Assembly: GCF_014287515.2 (NCBI RefSeq)
Contig: NZ_CP092473.1
Location: forward strand, 2,693,001-2,757,000
Source: Roseburia rectibacter
Lineage (GTDB): Bacteria > Bacillota > Clostridia > Lachnospirales > Lachnospiraceae
Direction: 5' to 3'
DNA: 64,000 bases
Shown: one piece after another, positions 55,796-61,573 of the stretch
Layout of the letters: each line of letters begins with the position of its first letter
Position numbering within the stretch: the stretch's first letter is position 1
Notes under the pieces: generated by a model
The model's database searches: none
What the model saw: only the letters and a program-made list of their open reading frames with translations
Told to the model about the DNA's origin: nothing
Program-made: the position numbers and the translations under genes

Positions 55796-55990
55796 GCTCT
55801 GATCCCTCTTTCTTTTCCTCTGTCAGATATGTGTAACTGATTTTTCGCCTGTCAGAAAGTATCCTGCCTTTCTGCACCATAGAATGCATACTCTGCGAAC
55901 ATCCTGCTTTATTATGAATAAAAAGAAAATCAGCGGCTGCTGTGCGCCCACACTTTATCACATTACTAACAGACAGTATGTATAATGTCT

Positions 55991-56019
55991 ATAATAATGT
56001 AATTTGTGAAACATTGCAA
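55991..56019 (-). promoter_or_regulatory. Probable promoter of the leuB operon
   Basis: TTGCAA (56019-56014) and TATTAT (55996-55991) 17 bp apart on the minus strand. The ~200-bp leader between it and leuB has no T-box core or obvious leucine leader peptide. Several short inverted repeats (for example TTTCTGACAG/CTGTCAGA-like) are present. Confidence 0.55.
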
Positions 56020-56054
56020 CCTCTGATTCTATTTTTCTTTTTTATAATATTTAT

Positions 56055-56110
56055 AACCTGGTATTATGAAAGTGCTTTCTTTTCATTACCTGGTTGTATA
56101 CCATGGTATA
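56055..56110. repeat. Inverted repeat and 14-bp palindrome at the exporter/leuB boundary
   Basis: AACCTGGTATTATGAAAG and CTTTTCATTACCTGGTT are an imperfect 17-bp inverted repeat (56055-56095), followed by TATACCATGGTATA (56097-56110), a perfect 14-bp palindrome ending 3 bp before the exporter stop codon. No T-run follows on either strand, so it is not a normal terminator. Confidence 0.55.
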
Positions 56111-56112
56111 GC

Positions 56113-57789
56113 TTAAGCGCTCATTACGGATAACAGACTGCGGAAGATTCCATCTTTCTGGATCAGTTCATCATAATTGCCGCGTTCGATGATGGCGCCT
56201 TTGGAAAATACCAGAATTTCATCATATTGTTTTAAGCTGTCTGCTTTTAACTGGTGTACGATATTTAAGATGGTCGTGTCTGACTGCAGGACGGTCTGTT
56301 CGATTTTTGCTGCCATGAGGCTGTCAAGACTGGATGTCGCTTCGTCTAAGATCATGACAGGAGTATTGCGGAGGAATGCCCTGGCTATGGCAATGCGCTG
56401 TTTTTCTCCGCCGGAGAGATTGGAACCGGATTCCTGTATGGTAAAATCAAGTCCCTTTTCGTTCAGGTAGTCTCCCATACCGGCACGGATTAATGCCTGT
56501 TTGATGTTCTCATCCGAATAGCTTTCATAAAGGGAAACATTGTCCCGCAGTGTGCCATCTAACACGACGACATTCTGATGAATGAGTGCAATGCTGCGGT
56601 AGAGTTCTTTCTTCTGGATATCGCTGATGCTCTGGCTGCCAAAACGGATCTCTCCTTCAAAATGGTTATAATAATGCATCAGCACATACATAAAGGTACT
56701 CTTTCCACTTCCGCTGTTTCCGACGATCGCATATTTTTTGCCAGGTTCAAAAGTTACGCTTAAATTATGTAAGACCTCTTCGCCCTCCTCGTAGGAAAAA
56801 CGTAGATTTTCCACTGAGATTGGCAGTGCTGTTTTTAACTTTTCCCCATGGTCTGCATCTTTCGGCAGGTTTAAGATATCCGTCACCCGCTTTAAAACCG
56901 GCTGGCTTGTCTTATAGTCTGCAAGCAGTTTTGAGATCCACTGGATCGGTGTCTGGATATAGTTCATAAGCTGTATGGTTGCGATCAGGATACCGACCGT
57001 AACGTAACCTTTTAAAACTAAAATCCCGGCAATTCCCATCATGCACACATCGATCAGGAAACCGATCCCGCCGGAGATGCTTCTTGACATGTTCTGCGTA
57101 TTGCGAACGGAAAAATGCGTCCTTTCCACTTCCCAGTTACATTTTTCATAATCGGTAAGGATCTCCCGCTCCACATGATAGCTCTTGATGACCTCATAGC
57201 CGTTCCAGATGTTTTTCAGTTTTCCGTTGTACCAGTCAAGCACATGGATGTATGATTTCTGGCGCGCTGAAATCTGTTTTCCAAACAAAAACGGCACGAT
57301 TAACGGCACCGCACAGAGCAGAATCGCCGAAAATGCCAGCCACGGTTCCATCTGGTACAACGTGACCGTCGCGATCAGAAATGTGAGGATCTGGATCACA
57401 ATGTTTGGCAGACACAGAAAATATTTTTCATCGAGCATACCGATATCATTGTTTAAGATCGATGTATACTCCGCGCTCTTGTGCAGACGGTAACTGTCGA
57501 GATCCGTGCTCACAATACTTTTACAGATGTCTTGTCTCACATCCACTAAGACTTTCTGTGAAAACTTCATCTCAAAATAGGAGCCGACATAGCCGAATGC
57601 TGCATAACAGACAACGATCACCACCCCTGCAATGCTCGTATGTAACATTTTTTGTGCATCCATGGCGGACACTGCGTCGATCATTTTCTGCATATAGAGT
57701 GCAAATAAAACTGCGGCTATGGTTTTTAGGACAGCGAAAAATACCCACGCCATAAGGTGTACTTTGTGCTTTTTGAAATATTCATTCAT
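56113..57789 (-). CDS. ABC exporter of the peptide locus (fused TMD-NBD)
   Basis: A half-transporter of 558 residues with six transmembrane helices in about residues 11-285, then a nucleotide-binding domain with Walker A GNSGSGKS (357-364), signature LSGGE (458-462), Walker B VMILDE (478-483) and switch His 512. It has no N-terminal C39 peptidase domain, so it would not cut a leader itself. It overlaps the radical SAM gene by 8 bp and has GGAG upstream of the ATG, so coupled expression with the maturase is very likely. Its GC content is visibly higher than that of the maturase gene. Probable role: export of the modified peptide, or self-protection. Confidence 0.92.
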   Translation of the reverse strand: MNEYFKKHKVHLMAWVFFAVLKTIAAVLFALYMQKMIDAVSAMDAQKMLHTSIAGVVIVVCYAAFGYVGSYFEMKFSQKVLVDVRQDICKSIVSTDLDSYRLHKSAEYTSILNNDIGMLDEKYFLCLPNIVIQILTFLIATVTLYQMEPWLAFSAILLCAVPLIVPFLFGKQISARQKSYIHVLDWYNGKLKNIWNGYEVIKSYHVEREILTDYEKCNWEVERTHFSVRNTQNMSRSISGGIGFLIDVCMMGIAGILVLKGYVTVGILIATIQLMNYIQTPIQWISKLLADYKTSQPVLKRVTDILNLPKDADHGEKLKTALPISVENLRFSYEEGEEVLHNLSVTFEPGKKYAIVGNSGSGKSTFMYVLMHYYNHFEGEIRFGSQSISDIQKKELYRSIALIHQNVVVLDGTLRDNVSLYESYSDENIKQALIRAGMGDYLNEKGLDFTIQESGSNLSGGEKQRIAIARAFLRNTPVMILDEATSSLDSLMAAKIEQTVLQSDTTILNIVHQLKADSLKQYDEILVFSKGAIIERGNYDELIQKDGIFRSLLSVMSA

Positions 57790-59008
57790 TGTTATTCTCC
57801 TTGCAGTCCGTATTTACTTGCAAATATTTTTCGCACATCTCTATAACCTGATTTCCATTAATATTTTTTATTCTATCATAGACCATTTTTGCTATTTGGT
57901 ATTCATTTTTTTCAATTAATATTGTAAATAATTGAAGAAGCTGCTCCTCATCCAATTTATTAATGTATTTTCTTGCTTGTACTAACTTATAGTTATATGA
58001 ACATAAAATATTCTCAGACTCTATCGTTCCATTTAATGTGAACCGCGAATTTGAGCATCCACCCAAACACATATCCCCATACTTGCACTCACGACACAGC
58101 CCTTTCAAATCATCTCTTTTAAAATTTCTATTCCACAAAAATGAATCCTTAGAAAACCATATATCTCGCAATGATCCATCTCTGATATTTCCCTCTATCA
58201 TTTTCTCATTTCTAATAGAAGTACATCCAACAATATCTCCATTTTGTAAAATACCAACTGATTTTTTTCCTGCCGAACATCCTGCCCAACAAGTATTCTG
58301 TTGCATACAAATTTGTTTTTTGTTGTAATAGCCTATTCCATCTGTCAGATGTATCTCTAATTGTCCTTCTTTCTTTTTATACGCAAAATCAATTATTTGT
58401 TCAATCATCCCTGGTTCAACAAATAATGTTTGTTGTTTAAGGAAATTACCCATTGGAAGTGTGATCTGTAGCTGCCAGAAATCAACCCCTATCTCCGAAA
58501 AGATATCATACATTTCGTCTAATTCTTCAATATTTTCATTGTTGATAGTAGTGGCTACCATTGTCTGTACACCATGATATTTTAATTTTTTTAACGCCAA
58601 TAAATCTTTTTCAAAAGATCCCTCTTTTCTTATTTTATCATGAGTCTCTTTTACACCATCAATACTTATTGCACAAATTGCAATTCCAGCCTGTTTTATT
58701 TTTTCTACTAAATCATCCTCCACAAACCACCCATTAGAAATTATGTTTGTGTAAATTCCAGCTTTACTTAATTTTTCCGCAATCGCATACCAATCTTTTT
58801 TTGTAGTTGGTTCTCCTCCTGTAAGTGTAACAAATTTTACTCCCATATTGATCAACTCATCACAAACATGTAAACATTCCTTCGTCGTCATTTCATCCAA
58901 ATACGGTTGCGCACATGAAGAACCACAATGTTGACATCTCATATTACAACCATGGGTCATTTCCCAAACAGCATATTCTAATTGATATTCTATTCTACTA
59001 TTTTCCAT
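57782..59008 (-). CDS. Radical SAM/SPASM peptide maturase
   Basis: A 408-residue radical SAM protein. The cluster motif CxxxCxxC is at Cys21, Cys25 and Cys28 (MTHGCNMRCQHCGSSC), LTGGEPTTKKDWY follows as the SAM-binding GGEP, and the core barrel includes AICAISIDGVKETHDKIRKE. A Cys-rich SPASM-type region (about 237-345) contains CMQQNTCWAGCSAGKKSVG, GDIVGCTSIRNE, CRECKYGDMCLGGCSNSRF and a final Cys, enough for auxiliary Fe-S clusters. The C-terminus (350-408) is helical. No RRE domain is fused. SPASM maturases typically form thioether or C-C crosslinks in short peptides. The gene is AT-rich relative to neighbours. AAGGAG precedes the ATG. Confidence 0.9.
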   Translation of the reverse strand: MENSRIEYQLEYAVWEMTHGCNMRCQHCGSSCAQPYLDEMTTKECLHVCDELINMGVKFVTLTGGEPTTKKDWYAIAEKLSKAGIYTNIISNGWFVEDDLVEKIKQAGIAICAISIDGVKETHDKIRKEGSFEKDLLALKKLKYHGVQTMVATTINNENIEELDEMYDIFSEIGVDFWQLQITLPMGNFLKQQTLFVEPGMIEQIIDFAYKKKEGQLEIHLTDGIGYYNKKQICMQQNTCWAGCSAGKKSVGILQNGDIVGCTSIRNEKMIEGNIRDGSLRDIWFSKDSFLWNRNFKRDDLKGLCRECKYGDMCLGGCSNSRFTLNGTIESENILCSYNYKLVQARKYINKLDEEQLLQLFTILIEKNEYQIAKMVYDRIKNINGNQVIEMCEKYLQVNTDCKENNNE

Positions 59009-59034
59009 TTCACATTCTCCTTATTTTTTTATAT

Positions 59035-59082
59035 AAAAAATGTCTGAGCATAGAACCTTTTCTTCTACGCTCAGGCATTTTT
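59035..59082 (-). terminator. Attenuating terminator between the peptide and maturase genes
   Basis: Arms AAAATGCCTGAGCGTAGAA and TTCTATGCTCAGACATTTT close a 7-nt loop and lead into TTTTTT on the minus strand. It lies between the peptide stop (59106) and the maturase start (59008). Partial read-through would yield many peptide transcripts per maturase transcript, the usual RiPP stoichiometry. Confidence 0.8.
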
Positions 59083-59105
59083 ACACACTATTTCTGTACA
59101 AATAT

Positions 59106-59264
59106 TTACATATTTTTTTGTTGTTCATTCTGCGCAGATCTGCATACACCATAATCAACAGCATAACCTGACGCTGCTGCCTTGCTCTGCAATTGATTAA
59201 ATTCTGATACAGAAACATATTCATCAAGTCCTAATCTTTCCATTACCTTTTCTAAATCTCTCAT
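59106..59264 (-). CDS. Candidate RiPP precursor peptide (52 aa, one Cys)
   Basis: A 52-codon gene with AAGGAAGGA immediately upstream of its ATG. The N-terminal two thirds is an acidic, helical leader-like segment (MRDLEKVMERLGLDEYVSVS followed by EFNQLQSKAAASG). The C-terminus has Tyr, Asp and a single Cys in GYAVDYGVCRSAQNEQQKNM. Position directly upstream of the radical SAM gene, same strand, a terminator in between and no overlap with any known protein make it the likely substrate. A single Cys allows at most one thioether; the aromatic residues could also be modified. A D-Y-G triplet is present, the pattern of spliceotide sites, but accessory PlpY is not encoded. Core boundary and product are unknown. 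Confidence 0.75.
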   Translation of the reverse strand: MRDLEKVMERLGLDEYVSVSEFNQLQSKAAASGYAVDYGVCRSAQNEQQKNM

Positions 59265-59296
59265 GGCATTCCTTCCTTTCATATTTTATATATCAA

Positions 59297-59309
59297 CACT
59301 TAATAAGTG
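59297..59309. promoter_or_regulatory. Operator-like palindrome upstream of the peptide gene
   Basis: CACTTA-A-TAAGTG is a perfect 6-1-6 palindrome 33-45 bp before the peptide start codon, placed where a regulator would act on the peptide promoter. It does not recur upstream of the two XRE genes. Candidate binding site for one of the TPR regulators. Confidence 0.35.
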
Positions 59310-59342
59310 CTAATAACTTTTTTACTGTAAATCACCTGTTGC

Positions 59343-59399
59343 AAAAAGACCATGTCAAAACCGGAAAAAAATTTTTTCTGGTTTTGACATGGTCTTTTT
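59343..59399. promoter_or_regulatory. Long palindrome between divergent peptide and small-ORF genes
   Basis: AAAAAGACCATGTCAAAACC and GGTTTTGACATGGTCTTTTT arms (28 bp each including the A/T centre) form a near-perfect palindrome. Each arm contains TTGACA on the outward strand. On the plus strand TTGACA at 59384-59389 is followed after 18 bp by TATAAC (59408-59413), a plausible promoter for the ORF at 59452. The minus-strand copy lacks a good -10. It may be a divergent operator/promoter or a double terminator. Confidence 0.5.
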
Positions 59400-59451
59400 A
59401 TAATATCTATAACATAATATATTTAAAATCTCAGATATGAGGTACATACAT

Positions 59452-59625
59452 ATGAAAAAAATATTACATTCCTTTCTCTTAATATTATGTCTCTTCACAA
59501 TAAATACCAATCATTCTTTTTCTTTGATTGTTAATTCCTACACGCTTATCGCTGACAAGAGCTACCCTATCATCGATACCTATAGCTTGGATTATTCTAT
59601 CTTCTCCCCAAACATTGTTTCATAA
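59452..59625 (+). CDS. Candidate pheromone pre-peptide (57 aa, signal-peptide-like)
   Basis: A short plus-strand ORF starting MKKILHSFLLILCLFTINTN, a basic n-region plus a ~15-residue hydrophobic core typical of a secretion signal. The remaining ~37 residues end in YSLDYSIFSPNIVS. GAGG lies 9 nt before the ATG, and a TTGACA/TATAAC promoter lies upstream. The 3' end overlaps the 3' end of the TPR regulator gene by 34 bp on the other strand. RRNPP receptor systems often pair a regulator with such a small exported peptide. Whether it is translated is unproven, and it could be a chance ORF in AT-rich DNA. Confidence 0.45.
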   Translation: MKKILHSFLLILCLFTINTNHSFSLIVNSYTLIADKSYPIIDTYSLDYSIFSPNIVS

Positions 59626-60527
59626 AGATCAGAAAACACCTTTTTATCTAATTCACCACTTGCTGCGGCGCTTACAAAATATGCCTGCTTATACTTTTTA
59701 CGGCAATATTCTGCCTTTTCTTCTCCCTCCATTCCACTTTCAATCATCTCATTCATATTCCATGCCATTTCCCCTAAAACAAATGTCATTATCGGTGCAT
59801 TTGCATATTTTCTCACTTTTGGCAAAATATATTCACATAATTCCATGGAATACCGATAGTTTCCAACTGCCCCATAATACTTTGAAAGATTTGCAGCAAT
59901 ACTAAGTTCTTCGATCTCCCATTCTGCCATATATCCTTCCCGCAGGCTGCGCAGCAGCATTTCACAGATTTTTATACTTTTAGGATACTCATCTATTCTG
60001 CCATATGCCACAGCCAGCCGCTTTAAAAGTGTAATCTCCTGTTCCCGGAAAGGATATATCACATCACTGTCAAGAAATTTTTTATACTGTGGTACAACTT
60101 CTTCTGCAAGCTCTTCTAATGCTTCCACAAGCTGTTCTGCTGTAATGCGCTGCATATAATAATCCAAAAAAGTACTTTCCCGGCGGATATATCTTTGTGT
60201 AGATGCGTCTTTTCCAACAAGTTTTTTCATCTGCTCCATATAAAAGTCTGCTTTTTCAAAATCATGCTTTGCCATAGCATCCTCAAAATATTCTCTTTCC
60301 TGTATCAGTTCCATATCCCTGCTGACACACACTGCATAATTTTTTTCTGTGATCTGGTACATTTTCTCCATAAGTTGCCGATATGTATCACTTTTCACTT
60401 TATGTTTTCCGTTTTCAATTCTGGAAAGTGTTTCTACAGAACAGACACCCTCACTTAATTCTTCCTGTGTCATTTTCTTTGCAATTCTTGAAAGCCGTAT
60501 CATATCACCAACATTATAATTTCCCAT
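59592..60527 (-). CDS. XRE-TPR transcriptional regulator, RRNPP-like (distal)
   Basis: An N-terminal HTH_3 (about residues 6-60: VGDMIRLSRIAKKMTQEELS, EGVCSVETLSRIENGKHKVK) is followed by ~240 residues of helical pairs in the style of TPR peptide-binding domains (for example FEKADFYMEQMKKLVGKD, IDEYPKSIKICEMLLRSL and SMELCEYILPKVRKYANAP). This architecture is shared by PlcR, Rgg and similar RRNPP receptors, whose TPR domain binds an imported pheromone. The start at 60527 has AGAGGTG upstream. It follows the second regulator gene by 13 bp. Target genes are inferred to be the adjacent peptide locus. Confidence 0.85.
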   Translation of the reverse strand: MGNYNVGDMIRLSRIAKKMTQEELSEGVCSVETLSRIENGKHKVKSDTYRQLMEKMYQITEKNYAVCVSRDMELIQEREYFEDAMAKHDFEKADFYMEQMKKLVGKDASTQRYIRRESTFLDYYMQRITAEQLVEALEELAEEVVPQYKKFLDSDVIYPFREQEITLLKRLAVAYGRIDEYPKSIKICEMLLRSLREGYMAEWEIEELSIAANLSKYYGAVGNYRYSMELCEYILPKVRKYANAPIMTFVLGEMAWNMNEMIESGMEGEEKAEYCRKKYKQAYFVSAAASGELDKKVFSDLYETMFGEKIE

Positions 60528-60540
60528 ATGGCACCTCTTT

Positions 60541-61449
60541 CTACACTCTGTCACCCGTCGTTTTTATTTTTTGCACCAGTTCCACATTGTCCATGACAAG
60601 TGCCGTATAATAAGCCATCGTAAGTTCCACCTGACATTGTTTTTGATATTCCTGCTGCATGTCCTTGTTTCTCTGCATCAGCTCTTTTAACAGTCCTGCC
60701 TTCTTAAAATGCAATTCTGCCAGCCCACGCATCGTTCTGCTTTCTTTTACCAGTGTTAATGCCTGTTCAATATATTCCAGTTCCTTTTGTGCATCTCCTT
60801 TTTCTTCCTGTATGCTGGCAAGTTCTTTCAGAATGGACATTTCAGCCTGTTCCTTGATTTTTTTCGAATCATACTTTCTTGTAAAAAGCAGCATTCTTTT
60901 CAATTCTGCCTCTTTCCATGAAATATCTTCCGAAAACTGAATCAGCCCCAAAAAAAGTTTTATCTCCATTTCACTGTATAAATCAGAAGTATTTTTCCTC
61001 TTTCCAAAAAAAGGTTTTGTCAAAAGTATCGCCTCATTTAATACAGCCTTGATTTCTTCTTTTGATGCACCACGTTTCTGTAACAGTTCTGCCTTTCCCC
61101 AGAGATAATATTGTTCATGAAGCACTTGTTTTTTTGGCATTACACTTTGATAACTCTGTAACAGTTTCTCCGCTGTATCCAGATTTTTCTCTTCTAAATT
61201 CCGATGGATATCTTTTCGTAACCGGAACAAGTTGTAATCTTTCTCATTCAATAACAATTCAAATTCAAGAACCTGCTTTCCTATTCTTGACAACAATGTC
61301 GCACTGACTAATGAATCCACCTCACGATATCCCTCTTCAATCCGGAACATCGTTGCTGGTGAACAAATTCCTTCACAAACCTGTGTCATGGACAATCCAT
61401 ACTTCTCCCGATAATACGACAATGCAATCCCTACCGTATTTAATTTCAT
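60541..61449 (-). CDS. XRE-TPR transcriptional regulator, RRNPP-like (proximal)
   Basis: A 302-residue paralogue-like regulator. HTH_3 at about residues 5-60 (VGIALSYYREKYGLSMTQVC, EGICSPATMFRIEEGYREVD), then helical repeats (NLEEKNLDTAEKLLQSYQSV, EEKGDAQKELEYIEQALTLV, MRGLAELHFKKAGLLKEL). GAGGGG precedes the ATG. The two regulators are tandem, of equal architecture but clearly divergent sequence. A pair could act as heteromer or as activator and antagonist. Located between the peptide locus and yajC. Confidence 0.85.
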   Translation of the reverse strand: MKLNTVGIALSYYREKYGLSMTQVCEGICSPATMFRIEEGYREVDSLVSATLLSRIGKQVLEFELLLNEKDYNLFRLRKDIHRNLEEKNLDTAEKLLQSYQSVMPKKQVLHEQYYLWGKAELLQKRGASKEEIKAVLNEAILLTKPFFGKRKNTSDLYSEMEIKLFLGLIQFSEDISWKEAELKRMLLFTRKYDSKKIKEQAEMSILKELASIQEEKGDAQKELEYIEQALTLVKESRTMRGLAELHFKKAGLLKELMQRNKDMQQEYQKQCQVELTMAYYTALVMDNVELVQKIKTTGDRV

Positions 61450-61518
61450 CTTCTGCCCCTCTAAAACTTTTCTGTCAGGCAGCAGAATATAAATTCCATA
61501 AATATTCTACTCCTATAA

Positions 61519-61558
61519 AGAAAAACCTGTTATGTTTTCTCATCCACACATAACAGGC
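61519..61558 (-). terminator. Terminator after yajC
   Basis: CCTGTTATGT and ACATAACAGG pair around a ~12-nt loop, followed by TTTTTCTTT on the minus strand. Confidence 0.85.
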
Positions 61559-61573
61559 TTTCTGGTACTACAC

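Follow-up and report, generated by a model that had tools for sequence, protein, structure and literature searches.

The gene block between leuB and yajC

The stretch analysed here (the window) comprises 64,000 nucleotides of the Roseburia rectibacter contig NZ_CP092473.1, and the subject is a gene module at 56113-61449 that appears to combine a peptide-modification operon with a peptide-signalling cassette. A preliminary description, made from the letters alone, had taken this module for a single cell-density-controlled system making a ribosomally synthesized and post-translationally modified peptide (RiPP) with a radical S-adenosylmethionine (SAM) enzyme. The genes on its list are all present on the minus strand where it had placed them, running reg1, reg2, precursor, maturase, exporter between yajC (stop 61574) and leuB (start 55795), and the 8-bp overlap that it reported between the maturase gene (57782-59008) and the exporter gene (56113-57789) is confirmed. 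The features are as follows.

55796-61573, no strand: lineage-specific insertion between leuB and yajC holding the whole module (leuB-yajC spacing in relatives)
60541-61449, minus: reg1, 302-aa regulator with an XRE-type helix-turn-helix (HTH) and a tetratricopeptide-repeat (TPR)-like helical region, the 'first' member of the pair (Foldseek, pair profile)
59592-60527, minus: reg2, 311-aa XRE-HTH and TPR-like regulator, the 'second' member of the pair (HTH_3 at 30.3 bits, Foldseek)
59452-59625, plus: putative signalling propeptide, 57 aa, with a Sec-signal-like N-terminus, from the ATG at 59452 (ribosome site GAGG)
59106-59264, minus: probable RiPP precursor, 52 aa, with leader motif EYVSVSEF and core ...SG-YAVDYGVCRSAQNEQQKNM (sequence, database matches, leader comparison)
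59199-59222, minus: leader motif EYVSVSEF, residues 15-22, common to the precursors of the nearest relatives
59148-59156, minus: D37-Y38-G39, predicted tyramine-excision (XYG) site (sequence, and the motif in neighbours of maturase relatives)
57782-59008, minus: splicease-like radical SAM/SPASM maturase of 408 aa whose C-terminus carries a short extension (cysteines, Pfam, NCBIfam, tree)
56113-57789, minus: ATP-binding cassette (ABC) exporter, 558 aa (Pfam ABC_membrane and ABC_tran)

The distance between leuB and yajC is 5.8 kb in the window. Among 12 loci read around leuB, yajC is also visible in six, and there the two genes lie 33-181 bp apart in five (L002, L004, L008, L009, L010) and 752 bp apart in the sixth (L011). 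The GC content is 0.323 for the maturase, 0.352 for the precursor, 0.38 for the regulators and 0.446 for the exporter, with flanking genes at 0.45-0.49. When six maturase peptide patterns were run against the contigs of one genome per species (84,980 species), a single distant relative was found; near-identical forms are present in the protein database. Because leuB and yajC are close together in relatives, most of the inserted genes are low in GC and the maturase is rare across the species scan, the sequence evidence indicates an accessory block that was probably acquired. Mobile-element ends were considered and rejected, as the block edges have no common repeats of at least 10 bp. No plasmid copy of the module was found at megablast sensitivity, and none of 13 pattern matches in viral contigs encodes a relative. 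The habitat is probably the gut, judging from the Roseburia names on the matches.

A splicease-like maturase and its predicted substrate

The maturase matches Pfam Radical_SAM at 100.8 bits (cut-off 29.5) and SPASM at 38.0 bits (cut-off 21.5). The CxxxCxxC cysteines C21, C25 and C28 are present, and the SPASM region holds C240, C244, C262, C305, C308, C314, C318 and C336 as presumed ligands. Among the best 25 of 73 NCBIfam matches, TIGR04103 (which we take to be the same family as IPR026482) comes first and TIGR03913 second, after which the score falls to 165 bits; the models for sactipeptide, ranthipeptide and cyclophane enzymes all stay below their cut-offs (for example StsB at 126 of 625, SkfB at 100 of 300 and DynA at 93 of 450 bits). 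Assignment to a known equivalog was rejected, since all of these best 25 matches are below cut-off. Judged by sequence, the maturase is related to TIGR04103 but falls outside that family.

Relatives of the maturase were detected in 7 of 397 genomes of the family (E <=1e-70) and 12 of 391 genomes of the class (E <=1e-60); of those at 46-58% identity, some have a C-terminal TPR region and others lack it. The window enzyme falls, in a tree of 35 rows, within an 18-row clade with support 93/98, its nearest rows being P0010-P0012, then L034 and L022; the AU test speaks against placing this clade together with the NirJ/TIGR04053 rows (p-AU 0.038). Near-identical maturases also occur in shortened forms: four clusters (P0004-P0007, 13 contigs) are 91 aa shorter, having lost sequence in frame over the first half of SPASM, and P0003 has a different in-frame loss.

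A close precedent for the chemistry is provided by the tyramine-excising spliceases. In the portions of the two papers available to us, XYG is described as the site at which PlpXY removes tyramine, with loss of C8H9NO, leaving an alpha-keto-beta-amino residue (PMC10533398, PMC11002830); PlpX is assigned to IPR026482 and works with PlpY, a partner carrying a RiPP recognition element (RRE) (PMC11002830, in the part available). The motif required of spliceotides is found in the precursor core, which reads SG-YAVDYGVC, at D37-Y38-G39.

The genes beside the maturase relatives carry the same motif. XYG-bearing neighbours, in forms that include KYGVP, MYGTG, LYGIE and KYGYP, were found in 9 of the 14 clade loci with context (L034, L023, L058, L059, L024, L025, L026, L064 and L061); L028 was left out of these counts, having no maturase open reading frame (ORF) by the pattern used. 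On an Agathobacter rectalis plasmid (L034), an unannotated 35-aa ORF ends in PVMYGTGVRM. Locus L023 has one precursor with five YGVP units and another with CYGVP, next to an exporter that by eye bears a C39-like N-terminus, while the neighbours in L058 and L059 contain LYGIE/LYGIK repeats. In L024, L025, L026 and L064 an NYGWC or AYGWC segment is followed by several KYGYP-type repeats, and in L061 KYGVP-type repeats come after a chagasin-type inhibitor domain (Pfam I42, 46.3 bits, cut-off 27.2). These last five proteins, chagasin/I42-like or of similar kind and each directly upstream of a splicease relative, have 5 to 16 YG motifs apiece and look as if a single protein might carry many ketoamide sites.

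The motif extends beyond the clade. An outer six-row group shows VYGGP in L065, L066 and L068 and VYAGP in L069, with no standout substrate in L029 and L067; the XYA and XYS forms beside L069 (VYAGP) and L022 (AYAV, CYS) may widen the known substrate motif. A Nostoc TIGR04103 gene adjoins a Nif11 precursor with the C-terminus ALYGLPPELF, and TIGR03913-type loci adjoin DUF1843 peptides, of which some, not every copy, contain XYG (PYGVA in Azospirillum, QPYGAG in Aureibacter). The lipoprotein beside a TIGR04133 enzyme (L039) holds EYGSP. A further 109-aa lipoprotein-like protein with several VYGPP units (L001:7607-9011) lies beside a radical SAM enzyme that groups with the TIGR04133 row (94/95). 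In an automated test, significantly YG-rich ORFs made up 6 of 33 ORFs adjacent to maturases and 2 of 86 distant ones (p 0.006); this finder misses very small precursors, and those of L034, L023 and L059 were picked out by visual inspection of ORF lists and six-frame translations.

The precursor ORF recurs in 17 database matches, as near-identical, truncated or frame-shifted forms. The pattern of its leader recurs at residues 10-15 of every one of the seven L034, L022 and L023 precursors (EFVKISEL, DFETVSEI, KYVKVEAL and others), with a chance of 0.0006-0.0042 per shuffled sequence, the pattern having been derived by eye from the same peptides on which it was scored; it is absent from the L058 and L059 precursors, whose leader is of another type. 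Tested against shuffles, the alignments with two of the L022 precursors reached p 0.004 and 0.015 and those with the remaining two 0.23-0.24; the L023 precursors gave 0.006 and 0.06, the L034 precursor 0.019, and those of L059 and L058 0.64-0.80. With the longer L023 precursor (p 0.006) the aligned stretch begins at residue 1 and extends as far as the YGV core. Taking the leader motif, the alignments and the neighbours together, and not YG alone, the 52-aa ORF is most likely a genuine precursor of the XYG kind, with D37-Y38-G39 as the likely site. As to conservation beside the maturase, searches for the peptide itself gave near-identical forms and no others, and the nearest relatives with context are flanked by precursors that share its leader motif and have an X-Y-[GAS] core.

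The preliminary description had matched the peptide to no named RiPP class and thought that the chemistry might be new, a view that the splicease precedent and the XYG substrates beside the relatives do not support. It had also drawn attention to the single cysteine; there is indeed only one, at residue 41, and the substrates next to the relatives do not support a special role for it. A thioether at Cys41 as the leading idea was rejected, because the XYG substrates beside relatives mostly have no Cys next to YG.

Around the precursor lie three elements that may matter for its expression.

59343-59399, no strand: terminator-like inverted repeat of 28 bp, 96% complementary, separating the receptor genes from the precursor (folding z -8.3 on the minus strand, -10.5 on the plus strand)
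59036-59082, minus: terminator or attenuator hairpin between precursor and maturase, 20-bp arms 90% complementary, then a T run (z -6.6)
59295-59311, minus: near-palindrome AGCACTTATTAAGTGTT directly upstream of the precursor (only site in the window)

The two strong hairpins mark the borders of the units, and the one at 59036-59082 would leave the precursor in excess over the maturase. Two weak Rfam matches to mir-4659 at 59338-59404, on both strands and below the gathering score, were rejected as an artefact of the long hairpin. The near-palindrome matches the window only at its own position, with 0 mismatches on the minus and 3 on the plus strand (at least two matches in 2 of 100 shuffles), and could, speculatively, be an operator. 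Pfam finds no C39 leader-peptidase domain in the exporter.

A probable receptor pair with a convergent propeptide gene

The preliminary description had called the regulators RRNPP-type, a reading that the fold comparisons support. In Foldseek searches PlcR came first for both: reg1 gave PlcR 3u3w (E 1e-4) and ComR 5juf (model pLDDT 77), and reg2 gave PlcR 2qfc and 3u3w (best E 7e-5; a single-sequence model, pLDDT 66), with TM scores of 0.47-0.53 against PlcR. The Pfam RNPP_C cut-off of 26.5 bits is not reached (reg1 15.6 bits, reg2 no match); a fused relative, L103, passes it with 31.7 bits and has two HTH_3 stretches. For reg2, the start ATG 60527 behind an AGAGG ribosome site is preferred over the GTG at 60554, which is also open. 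As ATG 60527 is the most likely start, reg2 would not overlap reg1.

Relatives of reg2 (E <=1e-8) occur in 30 of 299 sampled genomes of the family, with 48 matches listed. From 47 of these (G341:C273 was out, and L123 gave no unit) we obtained 43 receptor units: 11 tandem pairs, 16 fused proteins of ~580-660 aa and 16 singles. The units are not all independent, as several loci share genomes (G463, G536, G452 and others). The reg1 profile is the same as that of the first gene of other pairs, and in all four fused proteins checked the N-terminal half fits the 'first' profile better and the C-terminal half the 'second'. Fusion partners usually act jointly, and the fusions in other genomes thus make it most likely that reg1 and reg2 form one receptor unit. 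The commoner database form of reg1, P0144, differs from it by ~6%, with many changes around residues 80-100, a pattern as expected if specificity types exist.

The small ORF that had been described as divergent does diverge from the precursor gene; with respect to reg2 it is convergent, tail-to-tail, and overlaps the 3' end of that gene by 34 bp. Such an arrangement is frequent among the paired receptor units and rare among control ORFs. A convergent ORF was counted when it had a ribosome site, a Sec-signal-like N-terminus (secretion being judged by a simple hydrophobicity rule) and an end between 60 bp before and 200 bp after the receptor stop. Of the tandem units 9 of 11 have such an ORF and of the fused ones 9 of 16, together 18 of 27 paired units; the singles have it in 3 of 16 cases, against 4 of 328 unrelated control ORFs; an orientation-aware count over receptor loci gave 9 of 19. 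Units with <250 bp downstream were excluded, which dropped a single receptor in L101 that does have a convergent ORF; a different L101 XRE protein (341 aa) is among the 16 singles, and contig edges truncate two of the three singles that have a convergent ORF (L115 and L117). Since 18 of the 27 paired units have the propeptide gene, mostly with no RiPP operon in the stretch read, the propeptide is a constant partner of the receptor pair, and from the gene arrangement the two together look like a general Lachnospiraceae signalling cassette. In L099 and L148 the cassettes have nearby genes for 'YVDKT...RPRRFG' proteins, which by eye resemble ATPases; L148 has two copies.

At four other loci the cassette precedes a Pfam-verified radical SAM gene and an ABC-like exporter on the same strand. 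L142 has a tandem pair, a PqqD-like RRE (26.4 bits, cut-off 23.4), a SPASM enzyme, a 28-aa ORF and the exporter; L143 a fused receptor, a 44-aa Cys-bearing ORF, an AlbA-like enzyme and the exporter; L102 a tandem pair, a PapB-like enzyme, a 52-aa Cys-bearing ORF and the exporter; and L148 a fused receptor, a TIGR04463-like enzyme and the exporter, with no precursor seen. The AlbA-, PapB- and TIGR04463-like labels stand for NCBIfam matches below cut-off. In L155 a radical SAM gene and another gene lie on the opposite strand. By an automated count, which missed L148 and included the unverified L150, a radical SAM gene follows 4 of 21 paired units and 4 of 149 control ORFs (p 0.009). Because the maturases behind the cassette are of types different from that in the window, the cassette and not the chemistry is the constant. 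The regulators are tied to the present locus in part only: they occur without the maturase, in the 30 of 299 genomes given above and in none of the 21 stretches around maturase relatives, and they recur in front of other radical SAM peptide operons.

Proposed mechanism, alternatives and relation to known systems

We propose, with a probability of roughly 0.55, that the module is a horizontally acquired, cell-density-controlled RiPP block with a splicease-like maturase; its reaction, the pheromone action, the operon control and the function are predictions. Of the single density-controlled system originally described, a radical SAM RiPP operon beside a peptide-signalling cassette stands, and the control is read from adjacency. 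The mechanism may be as follows. The product of the 57-aa convergent ORF would leave the cell through Sec and be processed into a short pheromone, which at high density would be re-imported and bind the reg1-reg2 pair. Acting as one unit, the pair would switch on the precursor promoter, and the terminator after the precursor gene would hold the precursor in excess over the maturase. The maturase would recognise the leader motif EYVSVSEF and, at D37-Y38-G39, remove the tyramine part of the tyrosine (C8H9NO, ~-135.07 Da) and rejoin the ends, so that an alpha-keto-beta-Asp residue would remain; a second excision might occur at Y34-A35. Finally, the peptidase-less ABC exporter would ship the peptide and a separate protease would trim the leader. 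The electrophilic ketoamide of such a product suggests a protease-inhibitor role.

Several findings weigh against this proposal. On the side of the enzyme, the match to TIGR04103 reaches 217.4 bits against a cut-off of 725 and that to TIGR03913 212.6 bits against 591.75, and below-cut-off matches to TIGR04103 are unspecific, being found at E <=1e-40 also in Bacteroides ihuae and Methanosarcina acetivorans; support is weak (72/73) for joining the clade to the TIGR04103/TIGR03913 rows together with a third group. No PqqD/RRE match was found by Pfam in the six module proteins scanned, and there is no room for an RRE gene, with a 97-bp gap between precursor and maturase and the overlap of maturase and exporter. 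On the side of the substrate, YG is expected by chance in 16% of shuffles of the 52-aa precursor (p 0.16, not significant), the precursor variant P0124 reads DYS at the site, and only 4 of 9 precursor pairs beat shuffles at p <0.02. An XYG substrate is unconvincing in 5 of the 14 clade loci: L022, among the nearest relatives, has four precursors with AYA or CYS replacing XYG, and L027, L060, L062 and L063 have no convincing substrate (L060 has one YG, at chance level). On the side of the receptors, the models differ from PlcR by a root-mean-square deviation of 8-13 A, the reg2 model being built from one sequence; unrelated TPR proteins such as kinesin light chain score just behind RRNPP receptors in the fold searches; single receptors also occur (16 of 43 units); and most of the paired cassettes read have no RiPP operon nearby. 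Because the maturase is below the TIGR04103 cut-off and is accompanied by no PlpY/RRE gene, we do not file it as a spliceotide enzyme, and say from its sequence relations that it probably works like a splicease.

The same points leave room for another radical SAM modification, a thioether at Cys41 or a carbon-carbon link at Tyr34, Tyr38 or a Val, with the YG of the core incidental. The core does contain one Cys, the maturase is below every cut-off among those best 25 matches, YG arises often enough in shuffles, the L022 precursors have YA or YS, and the repeats of G478 (L025) have the sequence KYGYPCG, with a Cys three residues past the Gly. We nevertheless hold this to be unlikely, considering that XYG substrates accompany 9 of the 14 clade loci, most of their YG units having no adjacent Cys (KYGVP, LYGIE, KYGYP, MYGTG), and that the two top families are associated with XYG and not with sactipeptides, ranthipeptides or cyclophanes.

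The signalling cassette might also have nothing to do with the RiPP operon and share its insertion site by chance. None of the 21 maturase-relative stretches has a receptor of this kind, paired receptors mostly lack a nearby RiPP operon, and a strong terminator-like hairpin separates the two units. Both units, however, are inside one insertion, and the cassette precedes radical SAM-ABC operons of other maturase types in the same order at the four loci described, which makes a chance meeting rather improbable. That the RiPP itself is the signal sensed by the receptor pair, the 57-aa ORF being no pheromone, is much harder to maintain: some peptide systems do sense their own product, and the precursor is co-located with an exporter, but the receptor pair has a convergent secreted-peptide gene of its own in 18 of 27 units, mostly with no RiPP operon in the stretch read. 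There is a similarly slim chance that the locus is decaying and its product no longer made in much of the species, as the maturases shortened by 91 aa and the many truncated or frame-shifted forms among the 17 precursor matches could indicate, since the window itself has uninterrupted, full-length reading frames for precursor, maturase and exporter and retains the cluster cysteines, and some of the variants may be assembly errors.

The block with the splicease-like maturase can be compared with four kinds of known system. First, the PlpXY spliceotides of Pleurocapsa likewise have a SPASM radical SAM enzyme and a ribosomal XYG precursor, and their family, TIGR04103 (nif11-class maturase 3), is the best NCBIfam neighbour. 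Unlike them, the window has no PlpY/RRE gene and an enzyme below the family cut-off, a short EYVSVSEF-type leader in place of a Nif11 or nitrile-hydratase leader, a C-terminal extension where many relatives carry TPR repeats, and a Lachnospiraceae host with a quorum cassette alongside. Second, the TIGR03913/DUF1843 'GDL' systems of Azospirillum and Aureibacter share a related maturase and small precursors, some with XYG near the N-terminus, but they have no annotated receptor of this kind, and their YG stands before a conserved tail and not after a leader. Third, PlcR-PapR and ComR-ComS have the same HTH and helical-repeat fold with an adjacent secreted propeptide. They have a single receptor gene, whereas 27 of our 43 units have two receptors, in tandem or as one fused protein.

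Fourth, in streptococci, Rgg/SHP systems control RaS-RiPPs such as streptide and tryglysin, according to the parts of the papers available (PMC13361665, PMC8092268). To that extent the likeness is close: an RRNPP-type receptor and a small secreted peptide stand beside a radical SAM peptide operon, and the group III SHP genes, like the window propeptide, are convergent with rgg and overlap it (PMC13361665). The window differs in its two dissimilar receptors, tandem or fused, in place of one Rgg, in a longer 57-aa Sec-type propeptide and in another maturase family, and XYG does not appear in the part of the streptococcal core-motif list examined (PMC13361665).

The open-access literature searched contains nothing that combines RRNPP with Lachnospiraceae; as far as its accessible text goes, work joining RRNPP with radical SAM concerns streptococci and also clostridia, and a term search within that of RRNPP papers found no paired or fused double receptor. 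The strict setting of a published detector, as given in the part of the paper available, accepts receptors of 250-500 aa only (PMC10075063), and because of this size window fused receptors would be passed over. What the window shows is a probable splicease-like chemistry placed in new surroundings, next to an arrangement of receptors of which the open-access literature searched gave no description.

More tentatively, and at odds somewhat short of even, two dissimilar RRNPP-like receptors, in tandem or fused to ~610 aa, may constitute an obligate pair that responds to one convergent propeptide, and would then be a new class of quorum receptor, joined repeatedly to unrelated radical SAM operons in Lachnospiraceae; the version in the window would gate a splicease and so a density-dependent beta-amino-acid (ketoamide) peptide, probably in the gut. 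If the proposed mechanism is right, a commensal would have a density-controlled electrophilic ketoamide peptide, and the 52-aa precursor with a single enzyme would be a test case for tyramine excision without PlpY. The receptor pair with its convergent propeptide provides a searchable signature for quorum systems and RiPP operons across Lachnospiraceae.

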